The notes beneath the pieces were generated by a model. It saw only the letters and a list, made by a program, of their open reading frames with translations, ran no database searches and had not been told where the DNA came from. Of a stretch of DNA of 64,000 nt, positions 21,671 to 63,089 are shown piece after piece; position 1 is the first letter of the stretch; each line of letters begins with the position of its first letter. The position numbers and the translations under genes were made by a program. The stretch comes from Candidatus Poribacteria bacterium (GTDB taxonomy: Bacteria > Poribacteria > WGA-4E > WGA-3G): positions 124,001 through 188,000 of the forward strand of contig JAJEIE010000033.1 of assembly GCA_022827625.1 (NCBI GenBank), read 5' to 3'.

Positions 21671-21760
21671 GGGCAATAATGCACTTCGCATGAATCAACG
21701 GTATTCATGCCGTGTGGCATGAACCGGGGCGAGTACGCCGCAGAATTGCCCTACTACAAA
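21671..21760. repeat. Family A repeat interrupted by two nested repeats
   Basis: Outer family A arms GGGCAATA and GAATTGCCCTACTACAAA flank a 31-bp-type element (halves ATGCACTTCGCAT and GGCGAGTACGCCGCA), which is itself split by a 36-bp element at 21692-21727 with the ATGCCGTGTGGCAT hairpin. It is the same arrangement as at 26247-26370. Confidence 0.9.
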
Positions 21761-23120: not shown

Positions 23121-23188
23121 AGCGAACCGTTGACCGCAAACCGTTGACCGCGAACCGTTGACCGCAAACCGTTGACCGCAAACCGTAA
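23121..23188. repeat. Tandem 14-bp repeat
   Basis: Five units of GCRAACCGTTGACC between the isomerase stop and the MutL-family gene. R alternates mostly G and A in successive units (GCGAACC, GCAAACC). Confidence 0.85.
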
Positions 23189-23253
23189 TACGCAATACAC
23201 GAAACGCGGTAGGCGATTAGCGAATAGCGAAATTCAAACTGGAGACCGAGTGC

Positions 23254-25121: not shown

Positions 25122-25252
25122 ATCATTAGTAAATTGTTTAAATTCCCTCGTGAATTTGAATGACATTCAAGATTCACCTAACTTTTTGGTGAGGCCTGTA
25201 GGTTTTCAAAACCTACTATTAAATTACGATAACCATAAGGAGATAAACTTCA

Positions 25253-26083
25253 ATGCAGAAATCTTATCACCTCATGCTCGCCACGGTGATTCTTTTCGCA
25301 CTGGCTATGAGCATATCACACCTCGCATTCGCGCAGAAAGTTAACCTGAAGGATGGTCCTATCCCTGAAAAAGACTGGATGGTGAACCCCGGCGAGGCAG
25401 CGTTGAATGAAAGCCATGCAGACAACAAGAACTGGATCGAGAAGTGGTACGGTCCTGATGGCAACTACGAAAACAACAATGGGTTCGCCGCTTCCGCACC
25501 CAAAGACCTTATCGATGAAGGCACGAACGGTAAATTGACCCAAATCTCCCTATCAACGGTTGAAGGTTTAAAACTGACGCAGACTGTGGATATTGGATGG
25601 AAGGGTGCTAACGGTGGGGCGCGAGGTTGGACTGTCTTTGAAATTGACCCTGCGGATGCACACCACATGAATCGCGACGGGCCCGCTGATAACATGGATA
25701 TGTATGCGATCTGTGTTATTGACGCACCTGAGGATATGAAAGCCGTGATGTCTCCAGCACACGATGATCACGCACAGATCTGGATTAACGGTGAAAAGTG
25801 GTACAACAACTCCGCATGGACGGGTGCCGCACAAGAAGTCGATTTTAATATTGAAGTCGACTTGGTGAAAGGCGCGAATATCGTCCTGTATCGGTGTGGT
25901 GAATCCGGCGGACACGCCTATATGAACCTCCACTTTGACGATAAGACCCACGATGTCGCCGATTTCTATCCGGACAAGTCAGACGACCAAGCAAGTTTCT
26001 TCAAAGAAATTGATAGGGTCTTAGATGTTGAAGCTGCGGGTAAATTGACCACGACGTGGGCGGATATTAAACGGACTAACTAA
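25253..26083 (+). CDS. Secreted protein, paralog 1 of 3
   Basis: 276 aa, with AAGGAG before ATG 25253. Signal peptide 1-27 (ends HLAFAQ). The mature part shares long blocks with the two downstream paralogs: KWYGPDGNYENNNGFA, SPAHDDHAQIWINGEKWYNN and VLYRCGESGGHAYMNLHF. The pattern of a beta-sandwich with Asp and Trp/Tyr (AQIWINGEKWYNN) suggests a PA14- or carbohydrate-binding-like domain, but I cannot name the family. The C-terminus GKLTTTWADIKRTN is shared in form with the paralogs and with the Kelch protein. It has a strong promoter and terminator of its own, so probably abundant. Confidence 0.85.
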   Translation: MQKSYHLMLATVILFALAMSISHLAFAQKVNLKDGPIPEKDWMVNPGEAALNESHADNKNWIEKWYGPDGNYENNNGFAASAPKDLIDEGTNGKLTQISLSTVEGLKLTQTVDIGWKGANGGARGWTVFEIDPADAHHMNRDGPADNMDMYAICVIDAPEDMKAVMSPAHDDHAQIWINGEKWYNNSAWTGAAQEVDFNIEVDLVKGANIVLYRCGESGGHAYMNLHFDDKTHDVADFYPDKSDDQASFFKEIDRVLDVEAAGKLTTTWADIKRTN

Positions 26084-26090
26084 AACAACG

Positions 26091-26132
26091 AAAGTCCCTG
26101 CTTCTTTTTTGGGGTGGGGACTTTTCTTTTTT
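26091..26132 (+). terminator. Rho-independent terminator after paralog 1
   Basis: AAAGTCCC (26091-26098) pairs with GGGACTTT (26117-26124), followed by a T-rich run to 26132. Confidence 0.8.
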
Positions 26133-26246
26133 AAAAATTATGCACCTTTTCTAACCTAAAATTGTGTCTTTATAATTAAGCCCGAAAATATGTGACTTAC
26201 GTACCACAAACTGTATGAAATTTCAGAAAATAATTCGGTAATAGAC

Positions 26247-26370
26247 GGGCAATAATGCACTTCGCATGAATCAACGGTATTCATGCCGTGTGGCATGAAC
26301 CGGGGCGAGTACGCCGCAGAATTGCCCTACTACAAACGGGTCTGTTCGTAGTAGTGCGATTTATCGCACG
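26247..26370. repeat. Family A repeat with three-level nested insertion
   Basis: Outer family A repeat as at 3593-3651, including the GTAGTAGTGCGATTTATCGC arm and identical right flank. Inserted after GGGCAATA is a 31-bp-type element (26255-26318), itself split by a 36-bp element (26268-26303). It lies in the 415-base gap 26084-26498, which contains no gene. Confidence 0.92.
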
Positions 26371-26428
26371 TCCAGAAATTACCCAATTAATAAATTAATC
26401 TTCATTTAGTTTGTGTTTAGGATTTGCA

Positions 26429-26453
26429 CGCAAACTAACAGTTTGCGCTACAA
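26429..26453. repeat. Family B hairpin repeat
   Basis: CGCAAACTAACAGTTTGCG then CTACAA, about 45 bases before the Kelch gene. Confidence 0.88.
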
Positions 26454-26498
26454 TAGAAGTGTCCAATTAATTACGGAATTCACTCTAAGGAGGACACC

Positions 26499-27599
26499 AT
26501 GTTCGCAAAATACAAGTATTTGCAATCGGTTTTAGTGCTTCTATTTGTTGGGATTTCTGCAAATTTGGCTGTCGGTTGGGAACAGGTAACCAAGCTACCG
26601 ACGTTAAGGGTTGCAATGGCATCTGCTGCTGTTGGCGATCACATTTATCTTATCGGTGGCTTTAATAAGGATGAGAATTTAGGGGGTAGCGCGCCTGCAC
26701 TTTCAAGGGTGGATGTCTACGACACACAAACAAATACATGGCATCAAGCTGCAGGTATGCTCACGCCGCGCATCGGATCGAGGGCTGCCGTTTTTTCCAG
26801 CGATATTTATGTGTTTGGTGGATACATTCGGATGGCACTTCGCAATGAGTTGCGCAAAAAAACTGTTTACACAAAAACGATTGAAGTGTATGACACGCGA
26901 ACCGACACGTGGATCAAGAAGCGCGACATGCCGACGCTCCGTAGGAGCTTCGGGACTGCTGTTGTAGATGGGAAAATATACATCATCGGTGGAAACGTTC
27001 ACAACAAACAACTCGGTAAGCAGGTGTCCACAGGTCTCGTTGAGGTTTACGATCCGTTGACCGAGAGATGGGAGCGGGGCGCAGATATGCCGACAAAACG
27101 CGGTTGGCTTAATGTGGCTGTCGTGGATGGTAAAATCTATGTGCTTGGGGGATACATCTTGCTGGAGCACGGACTCGGACTTGATGTTGACCGTTTTTCC
27201 AGACGTATTGAGGAGTATAACCCGAAAACCAATAGTTGGCGTAGACTCCCTGACTTGCCGATGTTCAAATACGCTTTTTCATCCGTTGTTGTAGATGACG
27301 AGATTTACACAATAGGCGGCTATGATCTGGACAATCGGGACGCATATCTTGACCTCGTAGAGGTTTATCATCCGAGAGCCAACAGATGGCGTCCATCTCT
27401 GCCGATGCTCACACCCAAAATGACAGTCGCTGCAGTTGCCAACGGTACAATCTATCTCCTTGGCGGTAGCGGGGATGGACCTAAAGGAAGAAACCATTTT
27501 TCACCAGTGGTTGAAGCGTATGATACCGGCTTTCGAGCGGTTGACGCAAAGGGTAAACAAGCAACCCGCTGGGGTGAGATCAAAAAGCCTCATGAATAA
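26499..27599 (+). CDS. Secreted Kelch-repeat beta-propeller protein
   Basis: 366 aa. Signal peptide about 1-26 (ends NLAVGWEQ). Six Kelch repeats with the G-G doublet and Y...W spacing: HIYLIGGF, DIYVFGGY, KIYIIGGN, KIYVLGGY, EIYTIGGY, TIYLLGGS, each followed by VEVYDP-type strands and W. Six blades form a closed propeller for binding proteins or glycans outside the cytoplasm. The C-terminus after the propeller, VDAKGKQATRWGEIKKPHE, resembles the tails of the flanking secreted paralogs. AAGGAGG stands 7 bases before ATG 26499. Confidence 0.93.
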   Translation: MFAKYKYLQSVLVLLFVGISANLAVGWEQVTKLPTLRVAMASAAVGDHIYLIGGFNKDENLGGSAPALSRVDVYDTQTNTWHQAAGMLTPRIGSRAAVFSSDIYVFGGYIRMALRNELRKKTVYTKTIEVYDTRTDTWIKKRDMPTLRRSFGTAVVDGKIYIIGGNVHNKQLGKQVSTGLVEVYDPLTERWERGADMPTKRGWLNVAVVDGKIYVLGGYILLEHGLGLDVDRFSRRIEEYNPKTNSWRRLPDLPMFKYAFSSVVVDDEIYTIGGYDLDNRDAYLDLVEVYHPRANRWRPSLPMLTPKMTVAAVANGTIYLLGGSGDGPKGRNHFSPVVEAYDTGFRAVDAKGKQATRWGEIKKPHE

Positions 27600-27615
27600 C
27601 GTGAGTTTGAGATAT

Positions 27616-27806
27616 AATGTCAGTACTTGTTAGTTTGTGGCGTGTGCTTCGCAAACTAACAGTTTTGCGGCGTACTCGCCCAGATGCAATGTGCATCGCG
27701 GTACAAGTCAGACTTTTATCGAACCAATGTCAGTACTTGTTAGTTTGTGGCGTGTGCTTCGCAAACTAACAGTTTGCGGTACAGGTCAACCTTTTATCGA
27801 ACTCAC
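27616..27806. repeat. Tandem pair of family B repeats, one carrying an insertion
   Basis: Two copies of about 80-110 bp beginning AATGTCAGTACTTGTTAG at 27616 and 27726. Both have the CGCAAACTAACAG arm. The first is split by a 32-bp element (27666-27697, TGCGGCGTACTCGCC...GTGCATC) exactly where the second continues CAGTTTGCGGTACA. Confidence 0.92.
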
Positions 27807-27856
27807 GTTCATATAGGAAATTCTAAGAATATACAAAAATTTTGGATTATTATTGC

Positions 27857-27885
27857 TTGACAAATTTTCGTAAATATATTATACT
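27857..27885 (+). promoter_or_regulatory. Sigma-70-type promoter for secreted paralog 2
   Basis: TTGACA (27857-27862), 17-base spacer, TATACT (27880-27885). The leader to the ATG is about 170 bases and contains GAACCCGTAGGCGGTTC, a possible hairpin. Confidence 0.85.
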
Positions 27886-28060
27886 ATTATATAGCATTAT
27901 TCCATAAATACAATTTTGTTCACTTTCGCTGGCGAGGGCTTCAGAAGAACCCGTAGGCGGTTCTTTCAAACTTCGCCTTATTTTTGCCCTATCAGGACAA
28001 ATGGGTTTATGGGATAAGTTCTAAGTTTTGAAAATTTTATCAGGAGGCATTGTATTTTCA

Positions 28061-28891
28061 ATGAAAATGTTTTACCAATTGACCCTCACAACAGCGATCG
28101 TATTTGCGCTGCTTGTGGGCATAACACACCTCGCATTCGCGCAGAAAGTCAATATTGATGACGGTCCGATAGCCGAAAAAGATTGGCTGGCAAATCCTAA
28201 AGTCGCTGCACTGAACGAAGACCATTCAGGGGAAAAAACGTGGATTACCAAGTGGTACGGTCCCGACGGGAACTACGAAAACAACAATGGATTCGCCGCT
28301 TCCGCACCCAAAGACCTCATCGATGAAGCCACTAACGGCAAACTTGATCAAGTGAAACTTTCAACAGCAGCGGGTTTGAAGCTGACACAGTCTGTGGATA
28401 TCAACTGGAAAAAGGCGAACGGCGGTCCCCGTGAATGGACTGTCTTTGAACTGAATCCTGCCGACGGTAACAATATGAATAGAGGCGGTCCCGCTGACAA
28501 TATTGATACCTACGGGATTGTCGTTGTTAAAGCACCCAAAGCCATGAAAGCCGTGATGTCCCCAGCGCACGATGACTATGCGCAAATCTGGATTAACGGC
28601 GAAAAGTGGTACAACAACTCCGCATGGACGGGTGCCGCGCTTCAAGTTGACTACAATATTGAAGTCGATTTACAAAAAGGCGGCAACGTTGTCCTCTACC
28701 GGGTGGGTGAATCCGGGGGTTCGGCGTATATTAACCTCCACTTTGACGATGAAACCCACAAGGTCTGCGACATCTATCCCGATAAGTCAAACGACCAAAA
28801 GAGTTTTTTCAGCGAAGTCGCTGGTGCTTTGTCCGTTGAACCGACGGATAAATTGACGACCACATGGGCAGATATTAAGCGGAACAACTAA
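28061..28891 (+). CDS. Secreted protein, paralog 2 of 3
   Basis: 276 aa from ATG 28061, chosen because MKMFYQLTLTTAIVFALL matches the signal peptide of paralog 1 and AGGAGG lies 13 bases upstream; the frame is open from 28028. Signal peptide ends HLAFAQ. The same conserved blocks occur as in paralog 1 (WYGPDGNYENNNGFAASAPK is identical), and the tail is DKLTTTWADIKRNN. The family function is unknown. Its own promoter 180 bases upstream indicates independent expression. An unmatched feature: Arg-Cys in VLYRCGES of the other copies is VLYRVGES here. Confidence 0.85.
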   Translation: MKMFYQLTLTTAIVFALLVGITHLAFAQKVNIDDGPIAEKDWLANPKVAALNEDHSGEKTWITKWYGPDGNYENNNGFAASAPKDLIDEATNGKLDQVKLSTAAGLKLTQSVDINWKKANGGPREWTVFELNPADGNNMNRGGPADNIDTYGIVVVKAPKAMKAVMSPAHDDYAQIWINGEKWYNNSAWTGAALQVDYNIEVDLQKGGNVVLYRVGESGGSAYINLHFDDETHKVCDIYPDKSNDQKSFFSEVAGALSVEPTDKLTTTWADIKRNN

Positions 28892-28916
28892 AAAGCCCAT
28901 TTTTCCTTTAATTTTC

Positions 28917-28945
28917 TTGACAAATCTCCGTCAAGGTGTTACAAT
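28917..28945 (+). promoter_or_regulatory. Sigma-70-type promoter for secreted paralog 3
   Basis: TTGACA (28917-28922), 17-base spacer, TACAAT (28940-28945); about 125 bases of leader before ATG 29070. Confidence 0.82.
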
Positions 28946-29069
28946 AAATTGTAATGCTGAACGCATTTAAGCGTTTTATAACCTGTCTAAAGAAGCTTAG
29001 GGAGCGTCCAACGCAACCTAATTACTTTCAACTCTCAATTAACCTACAAAAAGGATATAGTACTTAGCA

Positions 29070-29903
29070 ATGAGAAGATTAAATACTTTTACCCTCGCAA
29101 TTGCGATTATTTTCGCCTTGAGTATGAGTTTCTCGCACTTTGCATTCTCGCAAGCGAACCTGATTCAAGGGGGTCCTCTGGCAGAAGACGTGCTCTTAGA
29201 AGATCCGGACCCGAACACTGATGCCTTGAGAGAAGATCGCAGTGCTGTAGAGTCGTGGATTAGCGTATGGTACGGACCCGACGGTAACTACGAAGAAAAC
29301 GGCGGTTTTGCAACTTCGGCACCGATCGATCTTATCGACGAAGGTACTGGCGGTGCACTCAATCAAGTTTCACTCTCAACTGTTGATGGCTTGCTCATGA
29401 CAGCAGACATTGATGTGGAATGGGGCGACGCCAACGGCGGCACCCGCGGATGGGCTGTTTTTGAATTAGATCCGGTAGACAACAACCACATGGAAAGAGG
29501 CGGTCCCGCGGATAACATTGATACCTACGCTATATGTGTTATTGATTCACCGAGCGACATGACATCTGTTATGTCCCCAGCGCATGATGACTATGCACAA
29601 ATCTGGATTAACGGCGAAAAGTGGTACAACAACTCCAGATGGACAGGCGCACCTTTAACGATTCTTCACGACGTTGAAGTTGAGTTACAAAAGGGTCTGA
29701 ACGTCGTCCTCTATCGTTGTGGTGAATCCGGTGGTTCGGCATATCTGAACCTGCACTTTGACGATGTAACGAACGATGCCGTTAGTATCTATCCCGAAGC
29801 TGGAATGGATAAGCAGGGCTTACTTGATTTCGTGGCTTCGTCTGTTGATGTTGAAGCGAAAGGCAAGTTGACCACGACTTGGGCAGACATCAAACGCAAG
29901 TAA
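29070..29903 (+). CDS. Secreted protein, paralog 3 of 3
   Basis: 277 aa, AAAGGA upstream of ATG 29070. Signal peptide 1-28 (MSFSHFAFSQ end). More divergent in the first third (LLEDPDPNTDALREDRSAVES) but with the same SPAHDDYAQIWINGEKWYNN and VLYRCGESGGSAYLNLHF blocks and the tail GKLTTTWADIKRK. Its promoter and strong terminator make it a single transcription unit. The function is unknown. Confidence 0.85.
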   Translation: MRRLNTFTLAIAIIFALSMSFSHFAFSQANLIQGGPLAEDVLLEDPDPNTDALREDRSAVESWISVWYGPDGNYEENGGFATSAPIDLIDEGTGGALNQVSLSTVDGLLMTADIDVEWGDANGGTRGWAVFELDPVDNNHMERGGPADNIDTYAICVIDSPSDMTSVMSPAHDDYAQIWINGEKWYNNSRWTGAPLTILHDVEVELQKGLNVVLYRCGESGGSAYLNLHFDDVTNDAVSIYPEAGMDKQGLLDFVASSVDVEAKGKLTTTWADIKRK

Positions 29904-30718: not shown

Positions 30719-32417
30719 GTCGCCCTGCGCTTTTGTAGCACAAACTTTTAGTTTGTGTCTCTTCCTAATCTACCCCTTTTTCGCTGCTGCTCAAACGCAG
30801 ATAGCAACTGGTGCCACGCATGCGACTATTAATGTCGCTGCGGTTGTGAAACCTCGTCACATCCAACTCGGCGAGAAGGCGCGTTTGGAACTTACCCTTT
30901 CGGGGGACGCTTTCATCGAACACGTCAAAGCCCCCAGGTTCAATTTTCTGCCAGCATTCCTCGCTGTCCCCCTCCGCTCCGAGACCGTGCCACACCTGAA
31001 ATCAGATAAGATTGCGGTTTCCATGGCATGGGTTTATGAACTGATCCCGCAAGCCGTCGGCGACTTCGTGCTATCTGATATCCAGTTCGACTATCAAGGC
31101 AGTCTTTATTTTGCAAATCCGGGTGCGATCCGTGTCAGTGGTACGGACACGTATCAGGAGGCTTTAACGGGTGGTATTCATCGGGTCGAGGTTGAAGTCA
31201 GTACACCAACGCCGTATCTCAACGCCCCGTTTACGTATACCTTCCGCTATCTCTATACGGTAACCCTCCCGACGCGCGAGTCTCCAACGCCCCGACTCCC
31301 GGAGTTCCGTGATTTCTTTGTCGAGACATTGGAAACACCGCCGCCATACACACGGCAAATCCGTGGGGAGACGTTTTGGGTTGAGGAATACGCACATAAG
31401 TTATATGCGAAGAAAGCCGGACAGATCGTCCTTGACCCTGCAGAGCTGCTACTGCCACTCCCGCAAGGACGCAGAACGTTGAAAACGAAACCACTGACGT
31501 TGACAGTGCAACCGCTACCGGAAATGGGTAGACCTGTGGATTTCAGTGGTCCTATCGGTGAATACCAAATCTCGGCGGAACTGGAGCGCGGTTGGGTTGA
31601 GGTCGGCAGCGCGCTAACGCTCACTGTGCGTGTCTCTGGACGTGGTAACCTTCAGGTGGGTGATGCACCCAAATCGCCTACGATCCCTGGCGTCATGGTG
31701 AGCGGTCCCAATTTCTCCTATGATGCGATGCCAACGGGTATGGCTTACGTTTACACGCTAACTCCGCTACAGACGGGGACACTCCGCATCCCTGCCATCA
31801 CTCATGTTCACTTCGATCCGAACCGTGCGACTTACGTAACAACTCAGACAGCACCTATCCCGCTCTCTGTCCGTCCATCCCCGAACGACCTTGTTGATGT
31901 TGAGACTGAGGACAGCGCGTGGCGATTCTGGGGGGCACTCTTATTGGTTATCTTGCTCGTGGGAGGTTTGATCGCGGGATTCCTCTGGTATCGCGAATCG
32001 CGGACCGCGGACCGCGGACCGAGTAGGTCGGAGACCAATGAAACCGAAGTTCTAAACGCGCGGGGTTCAGCCGGAGAACCCCTAACACCGGGTTCACACG
32101 CACGGGCGGCACTCGCTGCCCTCGCGAATACGGACACTGCTCACGATGTCGCAAAATTTGCGAATACGCTTGCGCAAGTGCTTTATCAGTATCTGGAGGG
32201 GACGCTGGCACTCTCACAGCGCGATGTTGAGGCGGTACGTCAGGCAGGCGTTGAGGCGCAGATTTCGGAGGACATCCTTGCGGAACTGGTTGATCTGCTT
32301 ACGAAGTGTGATTACTATCGGTTCGCGCCTGTTCCACTGAGTGCTGACGAAAGGGGCGCGCTTATCGCTCGTGCTGAGGCGGTTATTGACTACATTGACA
32401 ACCTTCAGAATGGTTAA
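30645..32417 (+). CDS. BatD-like membrane protein
   Basis: 590 aa if translation starts at ATG 30645, overlapping the TPR gene by 74 bases. It has a signal peptide (hydrophobic core about 30-48, cleavage after AAAQT), a large extracytoplasmic region of Ig-like beta domains (VKPRHIQLGEKARLELTLSG; VEVGSALTLTVRVSGRGNL), a membrane helix (about 424-446) and a cytoplasmic helical tail. This is BatD architecture, linked to oxygen tolerance or envelope stress. The signal peptide is partly encoded by a dispersed AGCACAAACTTTTAGTTTGT repeat (30736-30757). A start closer to the signal peptide, such as GTG 30690, is possible. The linker after the membrane helix contains a threefold GCGGACC repeat. Confidence 0.83.
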   Translation: MRIGYAKSYYKNNAKVGFGGKRIGKSPCAFVAQTFSLCLFLIYPFFAAAQTQIATGATHATINVAAVVKPRHIQLGEKARLELTLSGDAFIEHVKAPRFNFLPAFLAVPLRSETVPHLKSDKIAVSMAWVYELIPQAVGDFVLSDIQFDYQGSLYFANPGAIRVSGTDTYQEALTGGIHRVEVEVSTPTPYLNAPFTYTFRYLYTVTLPTRESPTPRLPEFRDFFVETLETPPPYTRQIRGETFWVEEYAHKLYAKKAGQIVLDPAELLLPLPQGRRTLKTKPLTLTVQPLPEMGRPVDFSGPIGEYQISAELERGWVEVGSALTLTVRVSGRGNLQVGDAPKSPTIPGVMVSGPNFSYDAMPTGMAYVYTLTPLQTGTLRIPAITHVHFDPNRATYVTTQTAPIPLSVRPSPNDLVDVETEDSAWRFWGALLLVILLVGGLIAGFLWYRESRTADRGPSRSETNETEVLNARGSAGEPLTPGSHARAALAALANTDTAHDVAKFANTLAQVLYQYLEGTLALSQRDVEAVRQAGVEAQISEDILAELVDLLTKCDYYRFAPVPLSADERGALIARAEAVIDYIDNLQNG

Positions 32418-32817
32418 TGGTTATTGGTTACTGGTTATTGGTTACTGGTTATTGGTTGTTGGCGGTTGGCTATTCGCGGTTTATTGTCTGAACTGTGATT
32501 TATGTGATTCAATGATTTATAGGATTTAAGCCCTCTGTGATTGACAATCCTCTTTTTTGTGGTAGATTTTAGAATTACTTTTACATCACAGATCGGCAAG
32601 TAGAAGAGGTCGGGATTCGGAAAAAATCAGAATCAACGGTATAAAGCCTATAAAGGCTTCAAATCAACGGTATTCATGCCGTGTGGCATGAACCGGGGTA
32701 TGAATGCCTTATGGCATTCCCCGCCTCCTACAAGTATGCCTGAAATGTAAAGGTATTTTCATAATTCACCATAGTATTACCGAATTATTTTTTCAAAAAC
32801 AGTAAAGGAATCCAAAA
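32418..32817. other. Intergenic region of simple and hairpin repeats
   Basis: 400 bases without a gene: a GGTTATTGGTTACT simple repeat (about 32409-32467); AGATTTTAGAATTACTTT; and hairpin repeats with ATGCCGTGTGGCAT (about 32677-32690) and GAATGCCTTATGGCATTC (32702-32719). Confidence 0.75.
32655..32730. repeat. Hairpin repeat, family C (unnested copy)
   Basis: AATCAACGGTATTCATGCC then GTGTGGCATGAACCGG is the same 36-bp element that is found nested inside the repeats at 21692-21727 and 26268-26303. It is joined here to a second hairpin GAATGCCTTATGGCATTC. An AATCAACGGTAT copy just upstream (32630-32641) suggests a local duplication. Confidence 0.85.
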
Positions 32818-33382: not shown

Positions 33383-34222
33383 CTAATCTGTTAGCGTGCC
33401 GTTGAGTTGTTCTAACTGCTGTGCGATCTCGTTGAGCTGCTCGTTTAAGACGTTCTGTGTGTCTGCGAGTGCTTTCGTGTTTTGTGGGGTAATGTCTACT
33501 ACCTCTTGACTGCTGTTAACGGCATTGTGTGCCACGAGGGTTTTGAGGATCTGATGTGCCAGACTCATGTGTTTCATCGTCTCTTTCGGATTTGTCATTT
33601 GGAAGATGAGGTGTTTCTGGTATCCGTAGAGGATTTCTAACTCTCGTGTGAGATTTTCCGAGCTGCTGAGGTCTTGGGTCCGGTAATTGGCGCAGTGTTC
33701 ATCTCGTGTCTGGATGAAGAGGGCACGGTACTTGTTGGGAAACTGAGGGTGGTCGATATGAAGCCGGCGGAATCTATTGAATAAGTTCTTTTGGACCTCC
33801 TTTTTATGATTAATTAGCGAAGTTTCTCTCTCCGTTCTAAGTGCTTTGTGTTTGTTGAAGCACTGTCTCCTCACCTCATACTCAAATTCCTTGAGGGCTT
33901 CCTCGTTAAGTATTTCATCGGCTTTGTTTCCGTATCTTTCTTGGTACTCTTCTTGGTATTCCTTGAGAAAGTCCGCGATGAAATAGCTTTTAAAGTTAGG
34001 TTCCTCTTCGCCGGCGTAATCCGCGTCGGGTAAATCTGCGTTTGCCAATTCTTCGGCTATCATATCGTCAAGCGTGGGTATCTCTTTGAGATAAGAGGGG
34101 AGGTCGGGAGGTAGTAGTTCATCTTCAAACTTTTCTATGAATGCCTCGACAATGTCGGTTAATTTCGTAAAGCAGGCGAAGTGTCTGACGACGAATTCTT
34201 TGTGTTCTTCTTGAAGTTTCAT
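33383..34222 (-). CDS. Protein of unknown function with DUF2280-like N-terminus
   Basis: 279 aa, AAGGAG 8 bases before ATG 34222. The first 30 residues (EEHKEFVVRHFACFTKLTDI) recall DUF2280 / small-terminase-like N-termini (EEHKxFVVxxLACFxxPS). The rest is helical and charged (FLKEYQEEYQERYGNKADEI), with a C-terminal coiled coil (NVLNEQLNEIAQQLEQLNGT). I infer either a phage-derived protein or a host regulator; no other phage gene is nearby. The gene opens the 33-43 kb accessory region. Confidence 0.6.
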   Translation of the reverse strand: MKLQEEHKEFVVRHFACFTKLTDIVEAFIEKFEDELLPPDLPSYLKEIPTLDDMIAEELANADLPDADYAGEEEPNFKSYFIADFLKEYQEEYQERYGNKADEILNEEALKEFEYEVRRQCFNKHKALRTERETSLINHKKEVQKNLFNRFRRLHIDHPQFPNKYRALFIQTRDEHCANYRTQDLSSSENLTRELEILYGYQKHLIFQMTNPKETMKHMSLAHQILKTLVAHNAVNSSQEVVDITPQNTKALADTQNVLNEQLNEIAQQLEQLNGTLTD

Positions 34223-34820
34223 CGGAATTCTCCTTAAAAATGTTACACCTATGTAACATTGCGTTACGTTGGTTATGGGTGATAAACCCAGTGCCTGTAA
34301 GGGTTTGTAGCGGTTTTGCTTTTAATGCGCTCCGGTGAAAAAAAAATAATTTTTCGGGAGATGTCGCATTTTACGCATTCAGCAGATGTGAGTAATTATA
34401 GTCATAGGACAATTAACGATAGCGTATAATAAGGACAAAATGTTTTTCGCTCCTAATGTAAATATAAACTTAATTTACAATTACATCTATATAATAGCAT
34501 ATATATTTGAGTAATTCAAATTTATTTTTTATTTTTTGTCTGAATGCACATCGCATTTGGGTGAGTACACCGCAAATCGCGGATTTTCACGGATGCGGCG
34601 GATGGCGCGGATTTTGGATTTTCTGTGTATTCGACGCGTTTCGTCATGTGTTGGGTTTCACTGGATAGGTCGGCGATGGCGGGCGTGTTGATGGCGTTGT
34701 TTATTGTCTGAATCACGGATTTACGCGGATTCGGCGGATGGCGCGGATTAGATGCTCTTCTCAACAACGCTTTTTGTTATATCTGTCTGAATCGTGGATT
34801 GTCGCGGATTTTTGGATAGG
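34223..34820. other. AT-rich intergenic region with CGCGGATT repeats
   Basis: About 600 bases. The left half is AT-rich (34330-34540) with no gene. The right half has TGTCTGAATCNCGGATT-like units near 34538, 34707 and 34787 with GGCGGATGGCGCGGATT. The first unit is split by a 31-bp element at 34544-34574. Short open frames here are repeat-derived. Confidence 0.75.
34544..34574. repeat. 31-bp mobile-looking repeat (family D) inserted in a CGCGGATT repeat
   Basis: ATGCACATCGCATTTGGGTG to ACACCGCA interrupts TGTCTGA / AATCGCGGATTTTC. Uninterrupted units of this host repeat lie at about 34707 and 34787. Confidence 0.88.
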
Positions 34821-35186
34821 TTACTGAAAAAATACCCACGAGATCGCTGCATTTTGGTCTGCTTGTGTTAGAAAGACTGCTGGCTCTGTTTCGGACGGTT
34901 TTCTATTCCGTAAATGCTGCATGAGTTCATCGTCACTATCGTCTTCGTCTTCATCTCTGAGAAAGAATGGCATCAAATGTGGTGGTACGTCATGTTCTCG
35001 TAGCATCATTTCCTCTAATTCTGATTTGCTAAGTGCGGTCGAAACATGCCCATTCAAAGGAGAGCCTTCCGGTACTGTATACACAAAGCCTTGATTCATT
35101 GCTTGCGCGATTTTGTGTTGGTGTTCGCGTTCTTCTTCGTTAAGAATTACGCCTTCTTGCCAATAGTGAGCGAATTGAGGTTTCAT
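34821..35186 (-). CDS. Hypothetical acidic protein
   Basis: 121 aa from ATG 35186 (AAAGGAAAG 6-8 bases upstream); an alternative GTG start at 35216 adds 10 residues. It contains an acidic run RDEDEDDSDDEL and an amphipathic segment EEEREHQHKIAQAMNQG. No family recognised. It sits between two repeat-rich gaps, upstream of none of its neighbours in the same operon. Confidence 0.55.
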   Translation of the reverse strand: MKPQFAHYWQEGVILNEEEREHQHKIAQAMNQGFVYTVPEGSPLNGHVSTALSKSELEEMMLREHDVPPHLMPFFLRDEDEDDSDDELMQHLRNRKPSETEPAVFLTQADQNAAISWVFFQ

Positions 35187-44778: not shown

Positions 44779-45342
44779 TTAGAAAGGAAGGAAAAAAGAG
44801 GCGACGAATAGGACATTGATAAACACCAGCACGCCGCGTCCCAGTCGGGTCTTTAGGCGTGGGAACAGATAGATCGATACGGCGAGAATACCTACGCATT
44901 CTACCACTCGGAAGATACCGGCGTGATGATTGTTATCCCAATACGAAATCGGACTCGCAAAGATAAAATCGGAGAGCGGGAAGAGGTGATGGTGTCCGTC
45001 GTCGTGATGGGTCAGGAAATCGAAAGCGCAGTGAATCAGCATACTCCACGCAACGACTGTCACTCGCTCGGAGTGCATCAGGTAATACCCGATCCCCAAC
45101 AGAATCAGAATTAAAGGCACGGCGTTGAACACATCGAAAAAGTTCTGCCACGCCTCCATGAAGTACCGAGACCCCCACATGTCACGCTGCGAGGTTTGGA
45201 AGATGAAAGTCTCTACGGCGAAGAAGATAAAAATCGGGATGTCGGGTATCACGGCACCGAGGAAGGCGTAAGAGTGGAGGTACGGTTTCCCGCGTTTTGA
45301 GAGGAAGGCGATGTTGAGGATGGCGTGGGATTGGGTGGTCAT
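44779..45342 (-). CDS. YdjM/DUF457-like membrane-bound metal-dependent hydrolase
   Basis: 187 aa with four or five membrane helices. The pattern of His and Asp (SHAILN near the N-terminus; GAVIPDIPIF; HCAFDFLTHHDDGHHHLFPLSDF) matches the YdjM/DUF457 family of membrane-embedded, metal-dependent hydrolase-like proteins. The substrate is unknown. It stands alone on the minus strand. Confidence 0.8.
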   Translation of the reverse strand: MTTQSHAILNIAFLSKRGKPYLHSYAFLGAVIPDIPIFIFFAVETFIFQTSQRDMWGSRYFMEAWQNFFDVFNAVPLILILLGIGYYLMHSERVTVVAWSMLIHCAFDFLTHHDDGHHHLFPLSDFIFASPISYWDNNHHAGIFRVVECVGILAVSIYLFPRLKTRLGRGVLVFINVLFVASFFLPF

Positions 45343-45496
45343 TGTTTTATGGTTTATAGTTGTTGGTTATTGGTTGTTGGTAAAAGAGCGTTGTGGGTAT
45401 GACAAACGTTTGCAACTGACACACGATTAACTAAGAACCAGTAACCATTAACTGAAAGTGGCGCGTAGCGGAACGACCTGACTGCTGACGGCTATT

Positions 45497-47128: not shown

Positions 47129-47363
47129 TAGTGCCTTGTCAACCTTGAATTGAGAGGCGGCTCGTAGTAGTGCGATTTAGCGCACGTCAAAAACGGGCAA
47201 TGAATTGCCCTACTACAAACAGATAGACCTAAGCACACGTCAAAAACGGGCAATGAATTGCCCTACTACAAACAGATAGACCTAAGCACACGTCAAAAAC
47301 GGGCAATGAATTGCCCTACTACAAACAGATAGACCTATCAGTTGAAATTTGACAAAACACGAG
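47129..47363. mobile_element. MITE-like element with tripled 53-bp centre
   Basis: Left end GTGCCTTGTCAA (47131-47142) and right end TTGACAAAACAC (47349-47360) correspond to the perfect ends of the 35244 element with two mismatches. The centre GGGCAATGAATTGCCC...AGATAGACCTA is present three times, at 47181, 47234 and 47287 (period 53). Confidence 0.78.
47181..47338. repeat. Tandem repeat, three 53-bp units
   Basis: Units at 47181-47233, 47234-47286 and 47287-47338, nearly identical; the first begins CGCACG instead of CACACG. Each has the GGGCAATGAATTGCCC palindrome. No spacers, so not CRISPR. Confidence 0.93.
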
Positions 47364-54672: not shown

Positions 54673-55404
54673 TTATATCACATACGACTCAGGGTTCCGC
54701 TCAACCTCTTCTAAGAGCGTATCCACATAATCCTTAATCCGAAACAACCGACACGTCGCGTCTCCCACCGGTCCCTGCCTCAATCTACCGACTTCATCCC
54801 AAAACGCCCCCAGTTCCGAACGCTTCAGTCGGATATATTCGGCTTCAGGGTCTTCCGCAAGGCGTTTGTTCCAATGCATCACCTCAACGAAATGCACATA
54901 AGTCGATGACTCGTAATCGACACCGAGCATGAGGAGTTTGGCATTTGCTTTGTAGGCGCGGAACATCGGTGAGTGTGTGCCGTAGGTTTTTCCCCATGGG
55001 GGTTGGTCCCACGGGGACTCGTAGCCTTCAAGACGGAGATGGTCTGCCACAAACGCTTGCGCGTCTTTCCCGCGCGCCGCAATGGCGTGGGAATAGTGGT
55101 TAGAGCGATAGGTATCCGACATTTGCCGGAAAAACTCCGTCAGCCATCCCACCGTAGACGGGGTCTTCCCAATATTCCAAGACGCTATCCGTTCTTCTCG
55201 ACTCGGTAGCAGACTGAACGACGGCATCAGAATCAGCCCGTCCCGTCCGACAGCCGCTGCTAAGGCGGAGATAACCGTACCCGCTCCACCTGCAACAGGT
55301 CCGAGACTCTTGAAGGATGAATGGATGAAAAGCGTATCCCCATTTTCGATGCCGAGATGGGTGAGGTCTTGGATGAGTTTTTCGCAAGCGTGGGGTGCTT
55401 TCAT
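54673..55404 (-). CDS. AAC(3)-family aminoglycoside N3-acetyltransferase-like protein
   Basis: 243 aa. Begins with the family pattern GDTLFIHSSFKSLGPVAGGAG and LILMPSFS, then NHYSHAIAARG with the expected His and AYKANAKLLMLGVDYESSTYVHFVEV. Acetyl-CoA-dependent acetylation of amino sugars; in environmental bacteria often of uncertain substrate rather than resistance. The ATG at 55404 shares a base with the stop of the upstream gene (TAATG), so translation is coupled. Confidence 0.88.
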   Translation of the reverse strand: MKAPHACEKLIQDLTHLGIENGDTLFIHSSFKSLGPVAGGAGTVISALAAAVGRDGLILMPSFSLLPSREERIASWNIGKTPSTVGWLTEFFRQMSDTYRSNHYSHAIAARGKDAQAFVADHLRLEGYESPWDQPPWGKTYGTHSPMFRAYKANAKLLMLGVDYESSTYVHFVEVMHWNKRLAEDPEAEYIRLKRSELGAFWDEVGRLRQGPVGDATCRLFRIKDYVDTLLEEVERNPESYVI

Positions 55405-56168
55405 TATTGCGTCTTGAAGAAGGTAATCATATCCGTAAAGCCGTAAAGACTGATGCTGCGATAGGTAATCGTAAGGTCTTTTGTCGTTTCTTCAAAGATT
55501 TTTGCCCAATCCGAGACAAGGGGTGTCGCCAGCTGCGCGGATTCGTTGTTGGCGAAATAACCGAGTGTAACGTGAGGTGTGTATTCGGAATGTGAGATTT
55601 TCACAGGAAAATTTTCATAGAGAGCTTCGCGGCGTTTTTCAATCTCTTTGAGGATCCGTGCCGATTCCTGATCTGCTGGCTCCAAAAGGACACCCATTCC
55701 AGAGTACCATTTGTAAAGACTGCCAAACTGAAAAGTGATGTTCCAATCAGGATGCTGGACTAACGGAGATTCATGCGTCCATTCTGTAAACCTACTGTTT
55801 TTGTCGAATGTATTTGGTAGGTTTTTTACGAATCCTTCCCACGTTTCAGACCCTGACGGGTTCCCATCTGGGAAATGACGGACGTTTAAACCGTCCCAGA
55901 CGGTAACATGATAGGAACTCGGCGGTAGTGGACAAAAGAGATATGTATTTGTCAGCAAGCGCGTGTCAATACGATCGCGCGCCTCAACGAAGGCTTGATA
56001 GAGTTTCAAACTCGGATGGCTCGAAACACTATCCAATTTCATGCGTTCAGAATTTTGTTGTAGGATGGACAAACCGTTGTCAGGATTATCGAACAAGAGC
56101 GAGAACCCGTTGAACGGTGCCCAAAGCGGTGCGAAACCGAGAATTTTATCTTGGGTGATGGTTATCAT
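55404..56168 (-). CDS. 2H phosphoesterase (DUF1868-like)
   Basis: 254 aa. Two H-x-T motifs, YHVTVWDGLN (about 81-90) and PHVTLGYFAN (about 201-210), identify the 2H phosphoesterase superfamily, in which the two His act as acid and base in hydrolysing cyclic phosphates or 2'-5' bonds. The 121-residue spacing and the length of 254 fit the DUF1868-like group rather than the shorter LigT. The stop overlaps the start of the acetyltransferase gene in TAATG. Substrate not known. Confidence 0.85.
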   Translation of the reverse strand: MITITQDKILGFAPLWAPFNGFSLLFDNPDNGLSILQQNSERMKLDSVSSHPSLKLYQAFVEARDRIDTRLLTNTYLFCPLPPSSYHVTVWDGLNVRHFPDGNPSGSETWEGFVKNLPNTFDKNSRFTEWTHESPLVQHPDWNITFQFGSLYKWYSGMGVLLEPADQESARILKEIEKRREALYENFPVKISHSEYTPHVTLGYFANNESAQLATPLVSDWAKIFEETTKDLTITYRSISLYGFTDMITFFKTQ

Positions 56169-56262
56169 ATTTTTTGGTTATGTTATGTAGCATAAACTTT
56201 TAGTTTGTGTTTCATATCCGCCGCAAATTGAATGAAAATTGGAAATAGATTAGGTAATTGAC

Positions 56263-56351
56263 GGGCAATAAATTGCCCTACTACAAACGGACCTGTTCAT
56301 AGTAGTGCGATTTTGCGGCGTACTCGCTCAAATGCGACGTGCATTATCGCA
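56263..56351. repeat. Family A repeat interrupted by the 31-bp element (opposite orientation)
   Basis: Starts as the uninterrupted 3593 copy, but the second hairpin AGTGCGATTTATCGCAC is split after GATTT by a 32-base insertion (56314-56345) reading TGCGGCGTACTCGCTC to GTGCATT. Confidence 0.92.
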
Positions 56352-56457
56352 CGTTGAGAAATTACCGAATTATGGTAAACCTTAGAATTAATTGGACACT
56401 ATAGATCAAAAACCAATCCCTTATCAAGGAGGAATAGTGTCTGTTAAGAGGCTCACG

Positions 56458-57627
56458 TTATCTAAGCGCACCGTGCAATCGCAGCAAAGCGGCAATTTGG
56501 CCCGCGTTTGCTCTACGCATCCGTTGTGCGACTTGGAGCGGGGTCAAACCTTTCCGGTTCTTGAGGTTCGGGTTTGCGCCTTTAAGGAGCAAGGCTTCTA
56601 AGGCTGCCCGTTGTTTCTCTCCGTTTTTTATCGTCGATCGGATCGCCTCAAAGAGCGGCGTCTCGCCGTTATCGTCCGTAGCATCAACCGTCGCTTCATT
56701 TTTGATGAGGAGATTGATGACTTTGGAAAAACCCGCTTTCGCGGCGTAATGCAGTGCTGTTTTCCCTTTGTAGTTCCGAACGTCAATATCAGCACCCATA
56801 TCTAAAAACTCTTGGACTTTGTCTGGATGTTCTCTATTGTCGCCGCGACAGGCGTAAACAAGAGGTGGCCAGCCCCCTGACCCCATTGCGTTTATATCTT
56901 TCGGCGGGATTCCATAACGCTTGAATAGCGCGCTTATTTCCGAACCGTCGTCCAAGATACGCGGTGCCTTGCTTGGATCGGCACCATTTTCAAGCAGCAA
57001 TTTGGCAATCTCCACTCGCTCGTCCGAGGCGGCATAATCCAGAAAGCGTTCACTATACGGCTTGATGACTGCCCCCCGCGAGATGAGCAACGCAACAATT
57101 GCAGGGTCTTTGCTCCTGATGGCATAGCAGAGCGGGGTTGCCCACGCTGCTTCTCGGTGCTCAAAGGTGTGGGGTTGCCCGGTGGGTAGCATCACCGCCT
57201 GAAGGTATCCTTTGTTGACCGAGCCTGGATCGTTATCAAGGTGCGAACGAACGGTGTCGTAGTCTCCGAGGTAGGCAGCGGTATGGATGTCGATTGTCGC
57301 GCCCTGCTGAAGCAGAAATTCAGCGACGGTGTCGCGTCCTTCATAGCGCGCCACACAGTAAGGTGATATTTCAATCCTGTGCTGGATGTGATAACAACCC
57401 GGCAGATTTATATCGGCACCGTGTTCGAGAAGGAATTTGACCATCTCCAATTTCCCACGGTATGCCGCCTCCCAGAGCATCGTCCGACCGTGTGAGCCGA
57501 CGGTATGAATCCAAGCCGGATTATCGTCGAGCAGTTGGCGCACAGTGTCAAGATCGCCGCGTCCGGCTGCTGCAACGACGATTTTGAGGAAGTCGCTCTG
57601 ATTTCCTGTGAGTTGGACGTTTGGCAT
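56458..57627 (-). CDS. Ankyrin-repeat protein
   Basis: 389 aa. At least eight ankyrin repeats are readable, with G-x-T-x-L-x-x-A helices: GRTMLWEAAYRGKLEMVKFL, RDTVAEFLLQQGATIDIHTA, GKTALHYAAKAGFSKVINLL, GETPLFEAIRS, GLTPLQVAQR. No signal peptide or catalytic domain; a cytoplasmic protein-binding scaffold. Symbiont genomes are rich in such proteins, some acting on the host, but there is no secretion signal here. It follows the dioxygenase gene by 13 bases on the same strand. Confidence 0.92.
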   Translation of the reverse strand: MPNVQLTGNQSDFLKIVVAAAGRGDLDTVRQLLDDNPAWIHTVGSHGRTMLWEAAYRGKLEMVKFLLEHGADINLPGCYHIQHRIEISPYCVARYEGRDTVAEFLLQQGATIDIHTAAYLGDYDTVRSHLDNDPGSVNKGYLQAVMLPTGQPHTFEHREAAWATPLCYAIRSKDPAIVALLISRGAVIKPYSERFLDYAASDERVEIAKLLLENGADPSKAPRILDDGSEISALFKRYGIPPKDINAMGSGGWPPLVYACRGDNREHPDKVQEFLDMGADIDVRNYKGKTALHYAAKAGFSKVINLLIKNEATVDATDDNGETPLFEAIRSTIKNGEKQRAALEALLLKGANPNLKNRKGLTPLQVAQRMRRANAGQIAALLRLHGALR

Positions 57628-59951: not shown

Positions 59952-61103
59952 CTATTTTACCACTTCAAAATCGAAACCGTCAAGTACATCGCCGTTTACC
60001 TCAAGCTCAAAACGGTGCCATCCCAGACACGCTTTGCCATCGTGATACTGCTTAAGCGACGGCAACGGAAAAAGAGATTTCTTATAATCCACACGCTGTT
60101 TCGGTTTCAACTTTCGTTGACTGAGACGGTAGCGTTTGCGTGTGACGTGTCCCGATGGACGTTTGTAAGCGACTGCGTAGTAAGTCAAGATCGTCTGTTC
60201 TGTATCGGATTCACTCTGTAGACTGAACGAAAATCGAAAAGGCTCGTTAATCGGTAGCGTCTGCCGTTCAGGTGTCAGTTCGATGAGCGTGATGTCTGCC
60301 TTTCCCAACTTCGGAACTGTACCCAGTCCCAGTAACTTAAACGCCCGCTTGTCTCCAATCTTCACCTGATATTTTAAGGCACGCTGGAGGATCTTTTTCG
60401 TCTCTGCGCGTCCATCCCGACTCCACTGCTCCAACCTGGCGTAGCCTGCTTCTGGGTAGTCTTTGACGATGTCCCGCATATCCGTCCCGACCTGCTCCCG
60501 CACACGCCCGTCTGCGTCGTTTTTGCGTGTCTCCAGCAGTGCTAAGATCGGTTGTGGGTCTTGGATATAGGGTCGAAGCCATTTCTGCCACGTGCCTCGT
60601 GTACAGAGCGACGCACACACAAACAGACGGAGGTTGGCGTTGTCGTCTTTCACCCATTCCCCGAAACGTTCAAAACACCGATTGGGGTCTTTGATGATAA
60701 ACGCGCGCATCTCCGCACCGCGTGCGCAACGGTGTTTTGCGAGTGTCTCGAAAGCATCCAGAGAGGCATCGAAATCCGCCAGTCCGTAGAGACTGATAAA
60801 GTGCGAAATCGGTCGTAGGCTTGTCTCGACTTCAGCAGTCGGGTGTTGTCCTGGGTTTGCTGGAGCCTCAACCTTGACGTAACCCATCAGAATAGCGAGT
60901 GCCTCGGAATAGTCTTGGGGCAGATGCTCCCGTAGGGCGCGTCCGATGGCTTTTGTCACGTTATAGATCGTCTGACCCTCCATCTCTGTCCGCACGTCCG
61001 CAACGAAGGCGGGGACATCAAACTCAGGGTAGATCCGTTGAAGTTTTTGTCCGATGACTAACCCGTCTTGTGTCAGATCGAAAAGCGTACGTTGCTCTCG
61101 CAT
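59952..61103 (-). CDS. AlkC-like DNA glycosylase (HEAT-repeat) with C-terminal beta-sandwich
   Basis: 383 aa from ATG 61103, with GAGGAG 10 bases upstream; the frame is open to 61379 but the upstream residues are not family-like. HEAT-repeat alkylpurine glycosylase: WVKDDNANLRLFVCASLCTR, DGRVREQVGTDMRDIVKDYP and ALKYQVKIGDKRAFKLLG, followed by a separate C-terminal domain (RFSFSLQSESDTEQTILTYY) of Ig-like beta-sandwich form, the arrangement of AlkC rather than the shorter AlkD. Removes 3-methyladenine or related bases. It sits alone on the minus strand. Confidence 0.85.
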   Translation of the reverse strand: MREQRTLFDLTQDGLVIGQKLQRIYPEFDVPAFVADVRTEMEGQTIYNVTKAIGRALREHLPQDYSEALAILMGYVKVEAPANPGQHPTAEVETSLRPISHFISLYGLADFDASLDAFETLAKHRCARGAEMRAFIIKDPNRCFERFGEWVKDDNANLRLFVCASLCTRGTWQKWLRPYIQDPQPILALLETRKNDADGRVREQVGTDMRDIVKDYPEAGYARLEQWSRDGRAETKKILQRALKYQVKIGDKRAFKLLGLGTVPKLGKADITLIELTPERQTLPINEPFRFSFSLQSESDTEQTILTYYAVAYKRPSGHVTRKRYRLSQRKLKPKQRVDYKKSLFPLPSLKQYHDGKACLGWHRFELEVNGDVLDGFDFEVVK

Positions 61104-61676
61104 ATTTGGGGACTCCTCTCCTTGGTGTGTAAATGATAGCATATTCAACGGAAGGCTGTCAACTGGGAATTCGGGGTGTTTGGTTGTTTGTCTGAATGCA
61201 CGTCGCATTTGGGCGCGTACGCCGCAGATCGCGGATTTGCACGGATTATACGGATGGTGCGGATTTTGGGTGGCTATTGAGGGGTAGTGGTGGATTGGAT
61301 GGGTTTTGAGCGGGACACCATCAGAAAGGCAGCAGTGGGCGGAATGTCTATAGAAAACGGTATATTCAAAAGTTCGCATTTCAGCAAAGTGCTATGTTTG
61401 TAGAATAAGAATCGATAAATGTTCAGTTTTTTCGGTGAAAGCATTTATAGTAGAATGTGAAAAATTTAAGAATTTGCCGACAAGTACGCTGCCGGTGAGG
61501 TTTTTTAACCTCTAAAAAAATGAAAGTAACGCATTGCTGTCCAATTTTTTGAGAGTTATAAATCGTGCTTTTATGAATTTTTCTGTCATTACTATAAAAA
61601 ATGCTGCCCCTACAAGAGGAACAGCAAATTAATTCCTAATAATCGTCCTGGGTTAAGGCGTTCTACCACTAACAAC
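61104..61676. other. Intergenic region with nested repeat
   Basis: About 570 bases without a gene. TGTCTGA is separated from GATCGCGGATTTGCACGG by the 31-bp element (61196-61226). Another hairpin GAGGTTTTTTAACCTC (61497-61512) is seen without the T-run of a standard terminator. Confidence 0.72.
61196..61226. repeat. 31-bp element (family D) inserted in a CGCGGATT repeat
   Basis: ATGCACGTCGCATTTGGGCG to ACGCCGCA splits TGTCTGA / GATCGCGGATT, exactly as at 34544-34574 and in the same orientation. Confidence 0.9.
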
Positions 61677-63089
61677 CTACCAACGCATAGATGCTTTTCT
61701 CTCCTCAACCTGTTGCCAGAATTCATCAACTGTTTCTTCAGACTGTGCCGGTATTAGGAAATCTTTCCATTGGTTTTTAAGTTTTTCGGCAAAATCACTG
61801 TCTTCATATTCTAAACCCAGAATCCACTGCTGGATTATACGACCGTGTCGGACAGCCTTGGTTCGCTCCTCGCTTCGCATATTCCAACGCTTTGTTGAAG
61901 TAGATTTGATTAACAGGAAATGCACCCATGGCGCTTGATGAAGATGCCATTCCAATTGGCTCAGTCCTCTTAGTGCAAATTGGACGGTTTCAAGAGTAGG
62001 ATTTTCCAGATCATGAAGCCGTTCATTGAGCAATTCCCGTGCGATTTCTGCCAGCATCTGTTGTCCGATAGGCCAAAATAGTAAATGATCTGTTTCATCT
62101 TCAGTTTCCCTATTGAGGAGATTGTGGACACGCATCTTAGTTGGTTCATTCCGAAGAACTGGGAGCTCAGTCAGTAGGGCTTCCCAATATATGACTAATT
62201 CATCATAGAGGCTATCAATGTATTCTTCGGATGGTCGGAACTTTTTGAAAGTTGCCAAATCCGTACTTTCTTCTCTGATTGGTCCCCAACCGTTAGAAAT
62301 TCTCTGTAATGAACTTAACAATTCAATGTTCATCTCATACAATGTTTCGATGCTCGTAAAGTATGGATCTCTGACTGTAAGGTTTTTGCCCTTCTTAGTC
62401 TTAATTCGATTCGATTCTCTTTGTTTACCGGCGAACTGAAAAAAAGTGTTTTCAGTAATTAGCCTTCGTGTAATAATTGCAAACGTATCGTCCTCATCCA
62501 TAATGATGTTGGTTGCCTGATCCATTGGTTTGGCATAACGGTTTAAGTTAGAGAAAAGCCTGCGGTACTTTTGCATGAAGGTTTCATTAGAATCTTCTCG
62601 ATTTGGCACGATAACAATGACAGAGAATTCATCCTCTTCAAAATCCTTGGGAGTACCATCTGATGTCGGATCGTTTCGAGCCAGAAGGGTTTTGATCGCC
62701 GATAGACGGTGCTGGCCATCTAAGGCATAGTATTTCTGTGTCCCATCAAACTTTAAGACTCCGAAAGCTTCATTAAGCCTGCGATCATCGTGGAAAAGTT
62801 CAAAACGTGGATCGTCTGTAACCTCGACTGGGTAAAACACCGGATCTCCTTCAAGTGCTGCAACAACTATTGAGGAGAAAAAGCGATGAGGTTGACGTTT
62901 TAAATACTCCACAATATCTTTTTTTACTCTACTCTCATCTAGAATCCGCTGAATTGCTTCGTCAAGGGTTCGATCTTCATGGACTTGGGAAGCATACATT
63001 ACATTCTGACTTAGTTCACGAGCACTCATTTTGACTACATAATAATTCCATGTGCCCATGCGCGAACATAAAGCTGGGTAAATATTCAT
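61677..63089 (-). CDS. DGQHR-domain (DndB-like) protein
   Basis: 470 aa. The DGQHR motif is at D124-G-Q-H-R128, in KYYALDGQHRLSAIKTLL, followed by FSVIVIVPNRED and ETFMQKYRRLFSNLNRYAKP. In DndB and relatives this fold is ParB/Srx-like and the family is tied to DNA phosphorothioate modification or other modification systems, with DndB as regulator. It lies in an apparent operon with a GIY-YIG nuclease and an HNH protein. The long C-terminal half (200-470) is helical and not assigned. No DndA/C/D/E genes are visible here; they may lie beyond the edge, or this may be a different system. Confidence 0.85.
   Translation of the reverse strand: MNIYPALCSRMGTWNYYVVKMSARELSQNVMYASQVHEDRTLDEAIQRILDESRVKKDIVEYLKRQPHRFFSSIVVAALEGDPVFYPVEVTDDPRFELFHDDRRLNEAFGVLKFDGTQKYYALDGQHRLSAIKTLLARNDPTSDGTPKDFEEDEFSVIVIVPNREDSNETFMQKYRRLFSNLNRYAKPMDQATNIIMDEDDTFAIITRRLITENTFFQFAGKQRESNRIKTKKGKNLTVRDPYFTSIETLYEMNIELLSSLQRISNGWGPIREESTDLATFKKFRPSEEYIDSLYDELVIYWEALLTELPVLRNEPTKMRVHNLLNRETEDETDHLLFWPIGQQMLAEIARELLNERLHDLENPTLETVQFALRGLSQLEWHLHQAPWVHFLLIKSTSTKRWNMRSEERTKAVRHGRIIQQWILGLEYEDSDFAEKLKNQWKDFLIPAQSEETVDEFWQQVEERKASMRW

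Follow-up and report, generated by a model that had tools for sequence, protein, structure and literature searches.

A probable mobile element of 32 nucleotides in REP-like hairpins and other sites of Poribacteria

Why is one of two adjacent hairpin repeats split while its neighbor runs on without a break? We addressed this question in a window of 64,000 nucleotides (positions 124,001 to 188,000 of contig JAJEIE010000033.1, our C25) from a Candidatus Poribacteria genome of 5.0 Mb in 41 contigs. The initial annotation of this DNA, made from the letters alone, had described two direct copies of a repeat (here called B) lying side by side, the first interrupted and the second continuous, and a base-by-base comparison bears this out (Table 1). 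The insert, given there as 31 bp, counts 32 nt: the first B copy reads TGCGGCGTACTCGCCCAGATGCAATGTGCATC at 27666-27697 and continues with GCGGTACA... from 27698, whereas the second reads GCGGTACA... directly from 27776. Identity between the two copies is 50/50 bases in the left arms and 24/28 in the right flanks, and the neighbor is thus the internal empty-site control that it had been taken for. Other B copies without the insert exist as well; more than 20 B matches cross the junction uninterrupted, and about seven others are filled. A related strain had also been proposed as a comparison; in the nearest relative found (G022), with flanks 90–94% identical, the orthologous intergenic region lacks the entire block of about 222 bp that holds both B copies. 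Because this block is absent from G022 and has no copy in G031 or G028, the B pair itself is probably a recent arrival in the window genome. Since the nearest relative is without the whole block, we infer insertion at 27666, rather than precise loss, from other loci. The split copy is surrounded by three related stretches (window 25249-29800) that are 71–81% alike and are likely duplicated genes.

Is the insert peculiar to this locus? We named it E (sequence TGCGGCGTACTCGCCCARATGCRAHGTGCATY) and searched for its 30-nt core, which has 44 matches in its own genome at up to three mismatches (22 forward and 22 reverse), against none for a reversed-pattern control in the same genome; the copies are therefore not a product of chance. 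At up to two mismatches, E is present in 34/36 genomes of the same genus, its own included, with 1 to 104 copies in each, and in 0/24 genomes from other genera of the same order or class. Among the genomes compared, E is restricted to one genus, some members of which hold few or no copies. A pattern scan of named genomes yielded at least 108 stretches in at least 80 records with E, with Poribacteria in every match listed.

Which sequences harbor E? The claim that it uses several unrelated hosts proved correct: E sits in the REP-like hairpins A, B, and C, in a repeat D, in itself, and at nonrepeat loci. A rough host rule distributed 178 distinct copies over A (59), B (44), C (35), D (6), and tandem E-E arrangements (15), leaving 19 unassigned, several of which are by eye variants of A, B, C, or D. 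The loci examined were mostly chosen for holding E, which biases the share of filled hosts but leaves the following gap lengths unbiased. The loop of hairpin A1 (GGGCAAT..ATTGCCC) measures 2 nt in 35 cases, 34 in 22, 66 in one, and 67 in two; that of A2 (GTGCGAT..ATCGCAC) measures 2 nt in 32, 34 in 13, 66 in two, and 87 and 101 in one each. Over all loci examined, the gap in B is 0 (27 cases), 32 (16), or 30 (1), and that in D is 0 (8) or 32 (7), while 107 gaps in C comprise 62 of 2–3 nt, 29 of 34–35, 3 of 66–67, and 13 of other lengths. In four host families, then, the gap is almost always of the host's own length or that length plus 32 (or 64), and E is therefore a 32-nt unit.

Hosts A and C are GTAG-type hairpins clustered around Y1 (RAYT-like) genes. 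A hairpins flank such genes at L214 in the window's own genome (C7, with many A-type hairpins on both sides of the gene) and at L220, and C hairpins do so at L215, L224, and L225; near these genes, E occurs at L215, L220, and L224, inside A- or C-type hairpins. Elsewhere in the window, three tandem units at 53-bp spacing (47183-47363) each contain an A-type hairpin, and short tandem repeats with a 14-base spacing (e.g., GCGAACCGTTGACC) occupy 23122-23191, 32409-32485, and 45334-45396.

Table 1. Copies of E, their hosts, and the two B repeats in the window (a slash marks the junction)
Feature	Positions	Strand	Remark
Element E, 32 nt, G18-C32 subtype, inside hairpin repeat B	27666..27697	+	
Split B copy, left arm	27616..27665	+	50/50 identical to 27726-27775
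Split B copy, right part	27698..27725	+	24/28 identical to 27776-27803
Adjacent uninterrupted B copy, internal empty site	27726..27803	+	
Block with both B copies	27619..27840	+	Missing from orthologous intergenic region of G022
E, A18-T32 subtype, in loop of REP-like hairpin A2 (GTGCGATTT/ATCGCAC)	56314..56345	+	
Copy of E within repeat D (CCGCGATT/CAGACA); its stem has the compensatory variant GGTG/CACC	34543..34574	-	
Copy of E within repeat D (CCGCGATC/CAGACA)	61195..61226	-	
REP-like hairpin A1 holding an E that another hairpin element splits, which makes it about 33 nt longer	21678..21742	-	
Second copy of the nested A1 arrangement at 21678-21742, 93 bp identical	26254..26318	-	

Do these varied sites share a signature? 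The sequence RRTT(Y) or RRTTT(Y) lies 5' of E at 102/119 distinct junctions and at 3.4% of random positions, a statistic that stems from few independent hosts (about nine types), since A, B, and C are repeats. Of the other 17 junctions, seven apparently belong to the right-hand copy of a tandem pair, which has the end of E itself on its 5' side. Counted by host type, seven of the roughly nine carry the motif, and all have TT at the edge or one base away. The 3' flank is far less informative. A guide in which the AAAT linker of E pairs with the RTTT flank was considered and dropped because position 18 shows no covariation with flank position -2.

Filled and empty versions of the same site were then compared among relatives. 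At L082, outside repeat hosts, E is present in one genome and missing from 8/8 aligned relatives, an exact 32-bp difference; here E occupies the final codons of a gene, keeps the reading frame open, and alters the end of the protein. At L130, likewise in nonrepeat DNA, four of eight aligned genomes are filled and four are empty, with exact edges (GTGCAATTT/AACAG). Within an A2 hairpin, L180 and L009 again differ by exactly 32 bp. The inverted A-hairpin pairs at L040 and L135 are nearly identical apart from their E content: in one genome, the left hairpin holds two tandem copies and the right is empty, and in the other, the left is empty and the right holds one. L116 and L080, two related repeat units that are paralogous rather than proven orthologous, differ in that one has an E whose left end is interrupted by a further E. 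No target duplication was seen at the sites compared, and a 1-nt duplication was rejected, the A1 sites reading ATTC/TGCGG...CATT/ATT. At three further sites of the window, the comparison was less clean: orthologs of window 55700-56900 in G031 and G060 (L246 and L247) lack about 1.1 kb (55385-56478) around the E at 56314, and in 60700-61700 and 33900-35100, orthology ends beside E.

Could E instead be original to the hairpins and be disappearing from them by precise deletion? The even split at L130, where either state may be the ancestral one, would suit such loss. However, the same 32 nt recur in unrelated hosts and within E itself, just one of nine aligned genomes is filled at L082, and most hosts have no direct repeats at the ends of E that could drive a deletion; we give this explanation hardly any credence. 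Exact 32-bp presence and absence, unrelated hosts, self-insertion, two conserved hairpins (below), and a conserved 5' flank are all observed, and E is very probably a discrete, nonautonomous mobile element, 32 nt long, whose insertions are precise, duplicate no target sequence, and lie 3' of RRTT(Y).

Are the copies equivalent in all hosts? E comes in two subtypes that differ in the closing pair 18-32: A18-T32 in hosts A, C, and D, and G18-C32 in host B and in the left copy of tandem pairs. With hosts assigned by the rough rule, the former is found in 100/100 copies from A, C, and D and the latter in 41/44 copies from B; the bases that follow G18-C32 copies are usually RYG. In the tandem pairs (L035, L040, L101, L103, L116, L150, and L175), the left copy is G18-C32 in 7/7 and the right copy A18-T32 in 8/8. 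Such pairs may have arisen when one E inserted into another or when E moved as a dimer of 64 nt, and their sequences fit both. This tracking of host by subtype is what one might expect if E did not transpose at all and spread through recombination, gene conversion, or template switching between filled hairpin repeats, as is the slightly greater likeness of own-genome copies within a host family (2.66 differences, vs. 2.94 between families; P = 0.056). Yet the exact differences at L082 and L130 lie in nonrepeat DNA without known homologous donor context, the edges of E are precise in unrelated hosts, and the split copy at 27666 matches its neighbor on both flanks and not the other filled B copies. 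Recombination is thus a decidedly unlikely account of the whole pattern, and E, once inside a REP, can be copied along with its host.

Does E have a conserved fold? Its 32 nt comprise two adjacent hairpins, at positions 4-7/12-15 and 18-22/28-32, and both are backed by compensatory changes. Among the 178 copies, pair 6-13 is CG in 152, TA in 22, TG in 3, and CA in 1, and pair 18-32 is AT in 126, GC in 49, GT in 2, and AG in 1; a G.A mismatch disrupts pair 5-14 in 19/178. Over 65 distinct 32-mers, Watson–Crick pairs fill 558/585 pair cells; 1,000 shuffles averaged 514 and never exceeded 527. RNAfold keeps the two hairpins in E alone and predicts other pairings for the composites with A1, B, and C. 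Because the stems contain 16 G.T pairs against 4 A.C mismatches (65 distinct 32-mers; binomial P = 0.012, with copies that are not independent), the strand as written seems to be the one that folds.

Conserved hairpins could also mark a regulatory RNA element, a terminator or attenuator under selection at gene ends, and E is mostly intergenic (13/178 copies lie within rough ORFs of 120 aa or more). Against this, its orientation relative to genes shows no preference (46 sense vs. 40 antisense among co-directional gene pairs), it is absent from the other genera and sparse or missing in some genomes of its own, and an Rfam search of 27000-28300 gave no match up to an E-value of 1. We regard a regulatory role as highly improbable.

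The excess of G.T pairs would likewise agree with movement through an RNA copy, in which reverse transcription or reverse splicing returns a folded transcript to DNA—a route reportedly suggested earlier for the small dispersed repeats of Nostoc—but G.T pairs stabilize folded single-stranded DNA too, and the lack of orientation preference also speaks against this route. RVT_1 went undetected in 16/36 genomes, the window's own included, and 15 of these 16 carry E, with up to 40 copies; the single-contig genome G010 combines 40 copies with no RVT_1 match. Copy numbers of E and RVT_1 were not correlated. Given E in 15/16 genomes without detected RVT_1, reverse transcription is less likely than the Y1 route discussed below, and we rate an RNA copy as rather unlikely.

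E is itself a host. Other hairpins sit in it right after its first hairpin: one type (GGTTCATGCC.. or GGAATGCC..) occurs where E occupies A1, A2, or C, and another is of a CCCCCCTGATAAGGGGG type. Because E both sits in hairpin hosts and holds hairpins itself, the nesting of small hairpins reaches at least three layers, a display of layered parasitism. The first type, in full GGTTCATGCC..GGCATGAA..ACCGTTGATT with a GGAATGCC variant, forms the nested copies of the window (21678-21742 and 26254-26318, minus strand) and recurs within E at L109, L224, L251, and L027. A third insert, CCCCCCTGATAAGGGGGG.., takes the place of the E linker at L021, L035, and L118, and similar stretches also stand alone elsewhere. 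Near the split B copy, a C-like hairpin (GGCGAGG..CTTCGCC, window about 27936-27990) holds another small hairpin, AGAAGAACCC..GGTTCTT, found in G022 and G028 too.

What might move so small a segment? Y1 transposition yields asymmetric flanks, no target duplication, and hairpins at the ends. E would move as a folded single strand, its two hairpins serving as minimal left and right ends, and a HUH/Y1-type single-strand transposase would cut and join it in trans. Its targets would mostly be foldable or single-stranded DNA, REP loops for example, and any later spread of host REPs by a RAYT would take E with it. The guide and hairpin logic of Y1 transposition is set out in PMC6006769, there for IS608, and in PMC8266576. 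Y1_Tnp was found in 37/38 same-genus genomes; the exception, G012, is 89% complete and has E copies with no Y1 match. Over 36 genomes, the copy numbers of E and Y1 were not correlated (rho = 0.11, P = 0.51). Eight IS605-type copies in G005, read at their left ends, do not resemble E, nor do two IS200-like copies of the window's genome at either edge. Among the loci examined, a search for an autonomous element with the halves of E as its ends returned only nested small hairpins, and a search of Y1 loci for a partner returned RAYT-like genes flanked by A or C hosts and IS605/IS200-like elements with other ends. Orientation on the G005 chromosome showed no two-arm bias (88 of 118 copies, P = 0.15, with the origin not located), so insertion on the lagging strand is not supported. 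As the mover of E, a HUH/Y1 single-strand transposase acting in trans is the best fit, which we infer tentatively and at somewhat less than even confidence; toward the whole reading, a mobile E together with folded-strand transfer in trans by such an enzyme, we lean slightly. A more radical picture of stacked mobile hairpins in Poribacteria, with REPs, E within REPs, and further hairpins within E, all moved by an undescribed enzyme or process able to insert folded strands of roughly 30 nt into T-rich loops of single-stranded DNA, strikes us as doubtful; if it were true, the smallest known mobile DNA would have arisen independently in a second phylum.

E is among the smallest mobile DNA elements seen, and its bearers, the Poribacteria, are sponge-associated bacteria. 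Its orthologous empty sites show that DNA of just 32 nt can move, and in a lineage other than the cyanobacteria, where such elements were described. Many copies, many same-genus genomes, species rich in E (such as G005, G018, and G027) and free of it (G028 and G034), and clean junctions make a ready system, and the mover of tiny elements thereby becomes a testable question. In a full-text literature search, titles and abstract openings reported no such element in Poribacteria.

How does E compare with known systems? Its hosts A and C resemble the REP/REPIN sequences associated with RAYT transposases (PMC3733652, PMC3116915, and PMC8266576) in being GTAG-type hairpins beside Y1 genes, and host A has the TY loop that PMC3733652 gives for many GTAG families. 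E itself differs: its consensus has no GTAG-type tetranucleotide at a hairpin foot, and it sits inside GTAG hairpins and also in unrelated DNA, and a classification as REP was rejected. IS200/IS605 elements make no target duplication and have a conserved 5' and a little-conserved 3' flank. E shares all three features with their nonautonomous derivatives, which are moved by Y1 transposases, and shares the hairpin at each end, but it is far shorter, has no spacer between right hairpin and right edge, and does not match the ends of the resident IS605 and IS200-like copies examined. We do not class it as such a derivative; no partner with matching ends appeared among those copies.

The closest parallel comes from cyanobacteria. 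Elhai et al. in 2008 reportedly described mobile small dispersed repeats (SDRs) of 21–27 nt in Nostoc punctiforme and relatives. These are said to be tiny, to insert precisely into repeats and into their own copies, to show compensatory changes in their folds, and to be confined to one clade. E likewise is confined to one clade and dispersed in copies shorter than about 50 nt, and it shows precise empty sites, a secondary structure with compensatory changes, and nested and self-insertions. Unlike the SDRs, it measures 32 nt instead of the reported 21–27, belongs to Poribacteria, forms two adjacent hairpins, and uses REP-like hairpins and RRTT(Y) sites as hosts; on its side of the comparison stand exact empty sites at orthologous nonrepeat loci. 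PMC4390886 states that SDR5 inserts precisely inside HIP1, and the Nostoc study is cited there and in PMC3733652 and PMC3116915. Compared by description, E appears to work like the Nostoc SDRs and to differ from them in size, phylum, and target.
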